A stretch of DNA of 38,502 bases from Mycobacteriales bacterium (lineage in GTDB: Bacteria > Actinomycetota > Actinomycetes > BP-191): assembly GCA_035714365.1 (NCBI GenBank), contig DASTMB010000015.1, forward strand, positions 1 through 38,502. The letters run 5' to 3'. Of this stretch, positions 4,185 through 19,950 are shown piece by piece. How positions within the stretch are numbered: position 1 is the first letter of the stretch; each line of letters begins with the position of its first letter. The translations under genes and the position numbers were made by a program. The notes beneath the pieces were generated by a model. That model saw only the letters and a list, made by a program, of their open reading frames with translations, did not search any database and was not told the DNA's origin.

Positions 4185-4847
4185 GTGACGCGCGCCGTGC
4201 TGTGGGATTTCGACGGCACCCTCGCCACCCGCCCCGGCGGCTGGTCGCGGTGCCTGGTGGAGGCGCTCGCCGGCGTCGGTGGCGCCTGCGCGGCCGAGGC
4301 GGTGCGGCCGGGGCTGCGCGACGGCTTCCCGTGGCACACGCCCGATGTCGGGCACCGCCACGACGCGGACGGCTGGTGGGCGGCGCTCGCGCCGCTGCTG
4401 GCGCGCGCCTATGCCGGGGCGGGCGTCCCACGCGAGGCCGCCGGCGCCGCGGTGGCGGCGTTCCGCGCCGTCTACACCGACCCGGCCGCCTGGACCGTCT
4501 ACGCCGACGTGGCGCCCGCCCTGGCGCTGCTGGGGGAGTACCGGCACGTGATCGTCAGCAACCACGTGCCCGAGCTGCCGGCGCTCGTGGCGGCGCTGCG
4601 GCTGCCGGTCGACGCGGTCGTCACCTCCGCGGCCGTCGGCTGGGAGAAGCCGCACCCGCGCCTGTACGCGGCCGCCCTCGACGCAGCCGGGCACCCGGAC
4701 GAGGTGTGGATGGTCGGCGACAACCCCGTCGCCGACGTCGCCGGCGCCGAGGCGCTCGGCATCCCCGCGATCCTCGTCCGCACCGCCGGCGAGGCGCAGC
4801 GGCGTTGCGAGGGGCTGGTCGAGGCGGCCCGGCTCATCCTCGCCTGA
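4185..4847 (+). CDS. HAD-superfamily hydrolase, phosphoglycolate-phosphatase-like
   Basis: A 220-residue haloacid-dehalogenase fold phosphatase. Motif I is DFDGT with D8 and D10 as nucleophile and acid/base. Motif II is the Ser of VIVSNH. The motif III Lys is in GWEKPHP, and motif IV is GDNPVADVAGA. A helical cap lies between motifs I and II. The substrate cannot be predicted; small phosphate esters are usual for the group. The GTG start at 4185 is preceded by GAGG about 9 bases upstream and runs divergently from the ileS T-box leader. The 3' end overlaps the convergent DUF167 gene by 14 bases. An alternative upstream start is unlikely because the T-box promoter region lies there. Confidence 0.85.
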   Translation: MTRAVLWDFDGTLATRPGGWSRCLVEALAGVGGACAAEAVRPGLRDGFPWHTPDVGHRHDADGWWAALAPLLARAYAGAGVPREAAGAAVAAFRAVYTDPAAWTVYADVAPALALLGEYRHVIVSNHVPELPALVAALRLPVDAVVTSAAVGWEKPHPRLYAAALDAAGHPDEVWMVGDNPVADVAGAEALGIPAILVRTAGEAQRRCEGLVEAARLILA

Positions 4848-5112
4848 GCGCGGCGGCGCGTTCGGCCAGGGCGTCCGCGTCGCCCGCGACCGCCAGGACC
4901 TTGTCGCGGCTCGTCGCGCCGGTCACCAGCGTCACGTCCGCCCGCCGCACGCCCAGCGCCTCGGCCACCGCCCGCAACGCCGCCTCCGTCGCCGCGCCGT
5001 CCACCGCGCGGGCGCTCACGCGGACCACGAGCGCCGCGCCGTACGCGCCGCCGACCGCCGTCCGCGGCGACCCCGGCCGCACCCGGATCGCCAGCCGGAA
5101 CCCCTCGCCCAC
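4834..5112 (-). CDS. DUF167 (YggU-family) protein
   Basis: A 92-residue small protein with the DUF167 signature: an N-terminal RLAIRVRPGSPRTAV strand-turn, then LVVRVSARAVDGAATEAALRAVAEALGV, then a C-terminal TSRDKVLAVAGD. The family has a compact alpha/beta fold, and its biochemical role is not established. The start is GTG 5112; a nearby ATG at 5120 is out of frame. A GAGG lies about 9 bases upstream on the reverse strand. The gene converges on the HAD hydrolase with a 14-base overlap of the coding ends. Confidence 0.8.
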   Translation of the reverse strand: MGEGFRLAIRVRPGSPRTAVGGAYGAALVVRVSARAVDGAATEAALRAVAEALGVRRADVTLVTGATSRDKVLAVAGDADALAERAAALRRG

Positions 5113-5159
5113 CCCCGCATCCTCGCGCGGGAATCCCGCCGTACGTCCCGCGCGCCGAA

Positions 5160-5188
5160 TTGATCACGGTCCGGGGGCGGCTTATCCT
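5160..5188 (+). promoter_or_regulatory. Sigma70-type promoter for the DksA-like gene
   Basis: TTGATC at 5160-5165 and TATCCT at 5183-5188 are separated by exactly 17 bases, giving a start near 5195 and a leader of about 87 bases before the ATG at 5282. This is one of the best housekeeping-type promoters visible in the window. Two DnaA-box sequences lie directly downstream of it. Confidence 0.65.
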
Positions 5189-5210
5189 GCGGCAACTCGT
5201 TCGACCGGGT

Positions 5211-5251
5211 TGTGGATAACTCGGCGCAGCACGCACGAAAACTGTGGACAA
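5211..5251 (-). promoter_or_regulatory. Pair of DnaA-box sequences
   Basis: TGTGGATAA at 5211-5219 is the reverse complement of the consensus DnaA box TTATCCACA. TGTGGACAA at 5243-5251 is the reverse complement of TTGTCCACA, the variant favoured in G+C-rich actinobacteria. They have the same orientation with starts 32 bp apart, about three helical turns. Both lie between the predicted transcription start and the ATG of the DksA-like gene, a position suited to repression or to DnaA titration. Function is inferred from sequence only. Confidence 0.55.
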
Positions 5252-17131: not shown

Positions 17132-17704
17132 GTGACGACCGTGGGTGTGCTCGCGTTGCAGGGCGACGTGCGGGAGCACCTGGCGTCGCTGCGTTCGGCC
17201 GGGGTCGAGGCGGTCGAGGTGCGCCGGGCGGCGGAGCTCGACGCGGTCGACGGGCTGGTCGTCCCGGGTGGCGAGTCGACCACGATCGGCCGGCTGCTCA
17301 CGATCTTCGGCCTGCTCGAGCCGCTGCGCGCGCGGATCGCCGCCGGGATGCCGGCGTACGGCTCGTGCGCCGGGATGATCCTGCTCGCCGACCGCGTGCT
17401 CGACGGCAAGCCGGGGCAGCCGACGCTCGGCGGGCTGGACGTGGCGGTGCGGCGGAACGCGTTCGGGCGGCAGGTGGACTCGTTCGAGACCGACCTGGCC
17501 GTGGCCGGGGTCGGCGGCGGGCCGGTGCACGCGGTGTTCATCCGGGCGCCGTGGGTGGAGGAGGCGGGGCCGGGCGTCGAGGTGCTCGCGGAGGCCGCCG
17601 GGCACCCGGTCGCGGTGCGGCAGGGCCGGCTGCTGGCGACGTCGTTCCACCCGGAGCTGACCGGCGACGCCCGCGTGCACGAGCTGTTCGTCTCGATGCT
17701 GTGA
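17132..17704 (+). CDS. pdxT: Pyridoxal 5'-phosphate synthase glutaminase subunit PdxT
   Basis: PdxT (Pdx2) hydrolyses glutamine and channels ammonia to PdxS. The 190-residue class I amidotransferase has [12 protein letters not shown] at its N-terminus, the oxyanion segment [12 protein letters not shown], the nucleophile C79 in [10 protein letters not shown], and H173 with E175 in SFHPELTGD. The catalytic triad is therefore complete. The GTG start agrees with the family N-terminus. Unusually, it is not directly behind pdxS: a lipoprotein gene and a reverse small gene lie between, and pdxT appears to have its own promoter. Confidence 0.96.
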
Positions 17705-17747
17705 ACTGCTTGTACCATGACGAAGGGCGCGTGACGGAGGGATCGCA

Positions 17748-18710
17748 ATGCATCGCACGGTCCGGAAGCTGTTGAAGTCGGCGGTCGGTGAGTCAAGACT
17801 GGTCGTAGTCGTTTTCTTGGACATCCGGGGCTTCTCATCATTCGCCAAGCTCGCGGAGTCTAGCGAGACCGCCTTGTTCTTGAGGAGTGCGTATTCGCGT
17901 ATACTGGACGACTACTTTCCGGATGCTAGTTTTTTCAAGCCCACCGGGGATGGCCTGCTCATCGTCATCGACTACGACGAAGCAACCGTCGATCGGACGG
18001 TCATAGACTCGCTCGCGCGTGCGATCCGCCTCGTTGAGGAGTTCCCTAGTCTCTGTTCTAGCGACAAGATGGTGAACTTCGATGTACCAGGAGCGCTTGG
18101 CATTGGGTTGGCACGGGGAGCGGCTACGTGCCTGACGTCGGGTGACGTCGTTCTGGACTACTCGGGCCGTCCACTGAACTTGGCCTCGCGTCTTATGGAT
18201 CTAGCGCGACCACTTGGCGTCGTGTTCGATTCGTCTTTTGTCCACGGTGTGGACGTGGAAGAACTCAGAGAAGAGTTCCACGAGGAACCAGTGTTCATAA
18301 AAGGCTTAGCGGAGGATGATCCGATAACGGTCTTGGTGTTGAATGATACTGTCGAGGTCCCTGAGTTCAATTGGCATCCAATCAACCGTAGTGTGACGAA
18401 GGTTGTCAAGGTAACGGAAGAGCCCTTCAAGGAACTCCTCACCTATGAGAAATATGTCAAGAAACTTGAAGCGGAGCCCATTGACCCGCAAGGGATTCAG
18501 GTAAGAACTAAATCCCCTAAAGCGCTTCCTAACGGGCGTAAGCATAAATCTTTGCGCACCAACCGCTCTTTTAAGGCGGAATATATCCGCCGCGGTGGCG
18601 AACCCTATGCGCGTATTGACTTTAATGCCATAGGGCGCACGTTGGTCAGAGACGGTGTGAAGCCGATGTGGAAGGTAGAGGTCACGCTCGAGTACGACAC
18701 CCGCGCTTGA
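17748..18710 (+). CDS. Class III nucleotidyl cyclase-domain protein, low-GC, probably horizontally acquired
   Basis: The 320-residue product has a cyclase catalytic domain at about residues 18-198. Metal-binding Asp residues are D25 (FLDIRGFSSF) and D68 (KPTGDG). K64 and D137 occupy the purine-recognition positions. N144 and R148 (GRPLNLASRL) are the transition-state pair. The domain ends with the usual strand FIKGLAEDDPITVLVL. All residues for activity are present. The C-terminal 120 residues are basic and unrecognised. Two sampled 60-base stretches are 47-50% G+C, against about 67-80% in neighbouring genes, and L187 is a TTA codon. The start ATG 17748 has GGAGG 7 bases upstream. It sits between pdxT and yebC, which are commonly adjacent. 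Product (cAMP, cGMP or a cyclic pyrimidine) and partner are unknown. Confidence 0.88.
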   Translation: MHRTVRKLLKSAVGESRLVVVVFLDIRGFSSFAKLAESSETALFLRSAYSRILDDYFPDASFFKPTGDGLLIVIDYDEATVDRTVIDSLARAIRLVEEFPSLCSSDKMVNFDVPGALGIGLARGAATCLTSGDVVLDYSGRPLNLASRLMDLARPLGVVFDSSFVHGVDVEELREEFHEEPVFIKGLAEDDPITVLVLNDTVEVPEFNWHPINRSVTKVVKVTEEPFKELLTYEKYVKKLEAEPIDPQGIQVRTKSPKALPNGRKHKSLRTNRSFKAEYIRRGGEPYARIDFNAIGRTLVRDGVKPMWKVEVTLEYDTRA

Positions 18711-18716
18711 CCGCTG

Positions 18717-19139
18717 CTAACTCTTCAGCCCCGCCGCCAGCCGGACCCGCCGCGCCAGCTCGCGGTGCGCCTCCGCGCGGCGCCGGTCGCCGAGCCAGCC
18801 GGTCGCGGCGACGTGGACGTCGCGGTCCGGCAGCAGCACCAGCAGCCGGGTGGTGGCGGTCGACATCCTCAGGCGCAGGGGCGCCTCGCCGATCGCGACC
18901 ACATCCTCGTAGCGGGCGCGGTAGGTGCGCAACGGGTTGCGCACGACCAGCCCGTCGACGTCGAGCACCAGCGCGATCCGCAGCGCCCGGACCACGAACG
19001 CCGCTGGCACCAGCGCCAGCGGCACCAGCACCGGCACGTGCGAGGAGACGCCGGCGCCGGCCCAGCAGACCGCGAGGAACGCCGGCACGTTCGCGTACCA
19101 GAGCCGCGCGAACCACGACGCCCACGACCGCTGCCCCAC
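18717..19139 (-). CDS. PH-domain membrane protein
   Basis: The 140-residue product starts at GTG 19139. Two adjacent membrane segments lie at about residues 15-50 ([13 protein letters not shown], then [25 protein letters not shown]). A small bacterial PH-type domain follows: [33 protein letters not shown], then [20 protein letters not shown]. The function of such proteins is generally unknown. TACCAT at 19151-19146 on the reverse strand is 6 bases before the GTG, so the transcript is probably leaderless. Base composition is normal for this genome, unlike the cyclase gene it converges on (6 bases between coding ends). Confidence 0.72.
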
Positions 19140-19200
19140 GCCGGGATGGTACGGGCCGCCGCCCGGTACCCTGATCGCCGAGCAACGTCGAGGAGGACTC

Positions 19201-19950
19201 GTGAGCGGCCACTCCAAGTGGGCCACCACCAAGCACCAGAAGGCGGCCAAGGACGCCAAGCGCGGCAAGGCGTTCGCCAAGCTGATCAAGACGATCGAGG
19301 TCGCGGCGCGCACCGGTGGCGGTGACCCCAACGGCAACCCGACCCTCGCCGACGCGATCGTCAAGGCGCGGAAGGAGTCGGTCCCGCTCGACAACATCGA
19401 GCGCGCGGTCAAGCGCGGCTCCGGCGAGCTCGCCGACGGCGTCAGCTACGAGTCGATCATGTACGAGGGGTACGCCCCCGGCGGCGTCGCCGTGCTGGTC
19501 GAGTGCCTCACCGACAACCGCAACCGCGCCGCCTCCGAGGTCCGCACGGTGTTCTCCCGCAACGGCGGGAACCTCGCCGACCCCGGCTCGGTCGCGTACC
19601 TGTTCAACCGCAAGGGCGTCGCGATCGTGAAGGGCGCCGGGATCACCGAGGACGACGTGCTCGGCGCGGTGCTGGACGCGGGCGCCGAGGAGGTCAACGA
19701 CCTGGGTGACGGGACGTTCGAGGTCGTCTCGGAGGCGGGCGACGTGCACGCGATCCGGGTGGCGCTGGAGGCGGCCGGGTTCGAGGTCGACTCGGCGGAC
19801 ATGACGTTCCTGCCGTCGATGTCGGTGACGCTGGACGACGACGTCGCGAAGAAGGTGCTGAAGCTCGTCGACCTGCTCGACGACCTCGACGACGTGCAGA
19901 ACGTCTGGGCCAACTTCGACGTCTCCGACGAGGTGCTGGAGAGCGTCTGA
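19201..19950 (+). CDS. yebC: YebC/PmpR-family regulatory/translation protein
   Basis: A 249-residue protein of the widely conserved YebC/PmpR family. These act as transcriptional regulators in some bacteria; more recent work ties members to translation of difficult sequences. The N-terminus [24 protein letters not shown], the [28 protein letters not shown] core and the acidic C-terminal [19 protein letters not shown] are diagnostic. GTG 19201 is preceded by AGGAGG at 19191-19196. TACCCT at 19167-19172 may be its -10 element. The placement upstream of ruvC matches the common pdx-yebC-ruvCAB order, here interrupted by a lipoprotein and a sigma-factor pair. Confidence 0.95.

Follow-up and report, generated by a model that had tools for sequence, protein, structure and literature searches.

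A predicted adenylyl cyclase gene, apparently acquired by horizontal transfer, between pdxT and yebC in a Mycobacteriales bacterium

A low-G+C cyclase gene in the pdxT-yebC gap

The window, that is, the whole 38.5-kb stretch of DNA analysed here, belongs to a 3.8-Mb assembly of 99% completeness. In it, an intact ORF of 320 aa with an ATG start (17748..18710, + strand) encodes a class III nucleotidyl cyclase with an extra C-terminal domain. It is preceded by pdxT (SNO glutamine amidotransferase; 17132..17704, + strand; PF01174, E = 1.7e-56) and followed farther downstream by yebC (TACO1/YebC; 19201..19950, + strand, with an approximate start at ~19201; PF01709, E = 3.3e-57), and a Shine-Dalgarno-like GGAGGG can be read in the sequence 6 nt upstream of the ATG (17736..17741, + strand). 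A reading of the letters without database searches (hereafter the sequence-only reading) had described a lone cyclase in this gap. The cyclase is there, but a bacterial-PH-like gene on the minus strand (18717..19172; an ORF matching PF10756 at E = 0.0043, below the Pfam cut-off) also lies in the gap and had been overlooked. This gene is convergent with the cyclase, the two stops being separated by 6 bp, and its G+C content is normal for the host.

The cyclase ORF has a G+C content of 54.2%, compared with a mean of 73.6% for the window, and its G+C fractions at the three codon positions are 0.59, 0.39 and 0.64, whereas the GC3 of its neighbours is ~0.95-0.99. In a sliding scan of the 38.5 kb (mean 0.736, sd 0.039), the lowest 960-bp stretch starts at 17701 (0.541), and the second-lowest non-overlapping one has 0.671. 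The dip runs from just past the stop of pdxT (17704) to that of the cyclase itself. The low-G+C island reported earlier is therefore real and is the most AT-rich 960-bp stretch of the window; the TTA leucine codon reported with it is also present (18306..18308, + strand) and is the only one in the ORF. No direct repeats of the target-site-duplication type were seen flanking the insertion, no tRNA lies close by (the single one is far off), Rfam gave no match, and a promoter search for the gene found none that was convincing.

YebC is present in all of the 60 genomes searched, and the pdxT-yebC gap was surveyed at 29 loci from other genomes, 28 of which, including both congeners, are informative in that pdxT and yebC are both visible. 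In all 28, pdxT and yebC adjoin with neither the cyclase nor the PH-like gene between them; presence of the cyclase here in all relatives, with the same low G+C and a vertical phylogeny, is what the sequence-only reading had named as speaking against its proposal. The distance between the two genes is below 120 nt in 26 of the 28, the exceptions being locus L092 (451 nt) and the congener G002 (705 nt); in the other congener, G001, they almost touch. The cyclase gene is also missing from the whole genomes of both congeners. Because these 28 relatives carry the pdxT-yebC pair without either gene, the cyclase and the PH-like gene are most simply explained as derived insertions into a conserved pair. 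In G002 the gap is occupied by ~700 nt of other sequence (L037, ~4580-5230), which seems to be a gene on the minus strand encoding a secreted protein; insertion into this gap has thus happened more than once within the genus.

Relatives and evidence for horizontal acquisition

When the host genome was searched with the cyclase protein, one other match was found, an ordinary cyclase (E = 5.7e-4); besides the query, the genome encodes five or more class III cyclases. Searches of genomes of the same class and phylum (198, 396 and 394 genomes in overlapping sets) returned weak matches to the cyclase domain only (best E ~1e-8 to 1e-10). A plasmid collection yielded the one near relative, a lone, unannotated 356-aa ORF on the Methylobacterium aquaticum plasmid pMaq22A_1p (L032:5953-7023), which shares ~33-36% identity with the query, the best found (36% over aa 20-161). 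Scans of genome contigs (using either the protein or an alignment of two sequences), of viral contigs and of phages found no relative, the single pattern match among viral contigs (L069) falling outside any cyclase ORF; since the contig scans were seeded by short peptide patterns, the lack of a match may be partly technical.

The M. aquaticum gene has 48% G+C, compared with 65% for the whole stretch in which it lies, and an IS1595-type transposase gene is located ~1.2 kb away (8234-9220 of L032). Its product ends in a NUDIX-type domain (PF00293, E = 9.8e-5), whose Nudix box appears degenerate by eye, R-H-Y-R-S-E-M-Q replacing R-E-x-x-E-E-x-G; the motif suggests a module for ligand binding rather than for hydrolysis.

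A maximum-likelihood tree was built from 32 cyclase domains (the query, M. aquaticum and 30 actinobacterial sequences, five of them from the host); in it the query and M. aquaticum share a long branch, supported at 100/99, that is separate from the remaining 30. Because the branch of M. aquaticum is long and carries a composition flag, and the tree includes no known PycC sequences, this position reads as that of a cyclase not belonging to the host set, without saying which family it belongs to. Clustering with housekeeping adenylate cyclases had been named as an outcome against transfer, and no grouping with the host's own cyclases was seen. Taken together, the outlier composition, the absence at the locus in 28 relatives and the separation from five host cyclases make horizontal acquisition of the gene well supported, as the sequence-only reading had proposed.

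Catalytic domain and predicted product

The catalytic domain covers approximately aa 16-200 (17793..18347, + strand), as delimited from the sequence and from alignments with the M. aquaticum homologue and actinobacterial cyclases. The complete class III catalytic set claimed earlier is confirmed, and all six residues are invariant in the two-sequence alignment of the query with its M. aquaticum relative. By role these are D25 and D68 (metal), K64 and D137 (base) and N144 and R148 (transition state), so that the two metal Asp, the base-reading pair and the transition-state Asn/Arg of a class III nucleotidyl cyclase are all in place. Because the full-length single-sequence AlphaFold model is poor (pLDDT 42), these roles rest on sequence. 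K64 and D137 were placed by alignment with actinobacterial cyclases, and the M. aquaticum homologue, in which both are conserved, was aligned with CyaB. K64 lies four residues ahead of the second metal Asp and has D137 as its partner, the arrangement of an ATP-type enzyme (Lys with Asp or Thr). Among class III cyclases, a Lys/Asp base-reading pair is the adenylyl-cyclase pattern.

The Pfam family PF00211 matched the cyclase below threshold (E = 0.039, aa 18-163). A two-sequence profile searched against the PDB ranked CyaB (8.5e-8), soluble adenylyl cyclase (1e-4) and CyaC (6e-4) first, and a uridylate cyclase appeared only at E = 0.3. The dimerisation arm has 7 residues from the adenine Asp to the Asn, as in the Rv1264 type, and the distance from the conserved Gly to the adenine Asp is 13 residues, near that of ordinary cyclases (both counted by eye on the alignment). 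A helix at aa 3-12 is predicted ahead of the core, at a pLDDT of only ~31-35.

The specificity residues were also compared with those of the Pycsar cyclases, a relationship raised by the sequence-only reading. In PycC, pyrimidine reading involves F60, K104 and F109 around the metals D62 and D106 in clade D, and F100, R142 and Q144 around D102 and D146 in clade E (PMC11224242). Mapped onto the query by their offsets from the metals, these positions correspond to F23, K64, T66 and L71, so that only the common aromatic is shared; K64 and T66 match neither clade D (K at D2-2, F at D2+3) nor clade E (R at D2-4, Q at D2-2), and in this residue-based comparison the query lacks the pyrimidine-specific pattern of PycC. 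Given the Lys/Asp pair and this mismatch, cAMP is the most likely product predicted from the sequence.

C-terminal domain

The C-terminal domain (aa 205-320; 18360..18707, + strand) had been called unrecognised, and it is so by every search made. A single-sequence Pfam search found no family at E <= 10, tblastn against plasmids and phages gave no significant match, and Foldseek returned nothing significant for a single-sequence AlphaFold model of the domain (mean pLDDT 63.6); the structure prediction suggested earlier thus yielded a mixed alpha/beta fold and no fold match. AGS-C (PF18134), the cyclase/SMODS C-terminal sensor, was found neither in this domain at E <= 10, in a single-sequence test that leaves room for remote kinship, nor elsewhere in the host genome. 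In Mycobacterium phlei, a class IIIc cyclase that makes cAMP consists of one catalytic domain and a C-terminal YHS copper sensor (PMC4626032). By analogy with this enzyme and with the NUDIX domain of the M. aquaticum relative, the C-terminal domain of the query is probably regulatory, and it is a candidate new sensor.

Search for a defence role

A Pycsar-like cyclase, or a new one-gene module, could be activated by infection and harm the cell through its product or its C-terminal domain. Several features would be expected of such a gene: it is a lone AT-rich gene in a host of 74% G+C and is absent from the congeners, it is fast-diverging, the identity quoted above being the best found, its sole near relative is likewise lone, AT-rich and plasmid-borne with a different C-terminal domain, and a defence gene, too, would show such a patchy, AT-rich, mobile distribution. 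However, the PADLOC PycC profile (PDLC00734) matches the query at E = 0.009 over 35 residues, and reaches 8e-24 on the host's ordinary cyclases. Because this profile matches in 129 of 296 genomes and more strongly to ordinary cyclases, the match was rejected as evidence of defence. One long match to the same profile (L042) is a CNBD-plus-cyclase protein and not a PycC. A match of the PDC-S07 profile (PDLC04899) to the M. aquaticum C-terminus (E = 7e-13) was likewise rejected as a defence link; this profile matches in 279 of 296 genomes and in 14 of 14 control genomes and so acts as a general NUDIX profile. Both profiles match ordinary proteins widely, and a hit to either alone is therefore not evidence of defence.

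Moreover, PADLOC reported no defence genes beside the query or beside the M. aquaticum copy. The neighbours of the cyclase are pdxT, the PH-like gene and yebC, which bears out the earlier statement that no effector gene of the TM or TIR type is adjacent. No CNBD-TM or CNBD-TIR protein was detected anywhere in the 99%-complete host genome; the CNBD proteins found in the host are two, both Crp-type regulators with an HTH. Together with the absence of AGS-C and the poor fit of K64 and T66 to either PycC clade, these results make a defence cyclase rather unlikely. An anti-phage role in general is possible, without specific support, and the Pycsar proposal of the sequence-only reading is not upheld, given the adenylyl-type specificity residues, the non-discriminating PycC match and the missing effector. 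Were a defence role true, it would bring something new to cyclic-mononucleotide immunity, a purine-type cyclase that operates with no partner effector.

Proposed role: an acquired cyclase feeding the host's own cAMP receptor

The reading that we favour, and to which we give about an even chance, is that of a soluble class III adenylyl cyclase, gained as a single gene by horizontal transfer, which has an accessory and probably sensory domain at its C-terminus and signals through the host's Crp. Catalysis would take place in a head-to-tail pair of chains, with D25 and D68 as ligands of two metal ions, K64 and D137 as readers of adenine, and N144 and R148 as stabilisers of the transition state, and would turn ATP into cAMP plus pyrophosphate. 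On some cue, the C-terminal domain (115 residues) would set the activity, and the cAMP would be read by the host's own Crp-type regulator. We infer that signalling through this regulator is the most economical mechanism; in one candidate receptor (C87 of the host genome, G000), the cAMP-binding cassette keeps what we take to be its Glu and Arg (GELALFDAQPRGAT). Ordinary cAMP/cGMP signalling, one of the options of the sequence-only reading, is thus the best fit among them, with the modifications that the enzyme is acquired and predicted to be of the adenylyl type.

A broader proposal, which we hold unlikely, is that the query and the M. aquaticum protein represent a lineage, so far undescribed, of mobile cyclases encoded by one gene, which swap C-terminal domains (NUDIX or the new domain) and act alone in signalling or anti-phage roles, possibly via the host's Crp. 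It is less probable still that the gene is a functionless remnant of a larger transferred unit whose partner was lost: no partner gene is adjacent, the PH-like neighbour having host composition and the opposite strand, but the frame is intact, the six catalytic residues are kept and the ribosome-binding site is good, and the distant M. aquaticum relative is also lone, so that being lone may be normal. Vertical inheritance of a host cyclase with odd composition is very improbable despite the other class III cyclases in the genome, since the gene is absent from both congeners, the searches of several hundred other genomes in the class and phylum turned up ordinary cyclases only, and its composition and its position in the tree lie outside those of the host. 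If the acquired adenylyl cyclase is what the gene encodes, one gene would suffice to give the bacterium a new cAMP input, the receptor being already in place in the host.

Comparison with known cyclases

Pycsar PycC proteins (clades A-E; PMC11224242) resemble the query in having a class III cyclase domain, in size and possibly in mobility, and differ from it in their base-reading residues and in their CNBD-TM or CNBD-TIR effector; the match of the query to the PycC profile is not a discriminating one. The M. aquaticum cyclase is closer, with a sister cyclase domain (100/99), the same six catalytic residues, an equally short spacing from the adenine Asp to the transition-state Asn, and a lone, AT-rich gene, whereas its NUDIX C-terminus is unrelated to the unrecognised domain of the query. 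CyaB of Pseudomonas aeruginosa (PDB 3r5g), the best solved match to the catalytic domain by profile, has the same K/D pair for base reading as the query, but is two residues longer from the adenine Asp to the transition-state Asn and bears other regulatory domains. The M. phlei YHS cyclase shares the plan of a single catalytic domain with the canonical set followed by a small C-terminal domain; it is shorter (233 aa), its YHS domain senses copper through Cys ligands, a signature that the query lacks, and it belongs to class IIIc, to which the dimerisation arm of the query does not clearly correspond (PMC4626032). The query thus joins a known kind, the class III cyclases with a C-terminal accessory domain, and is probably an adenylyl cyclase.
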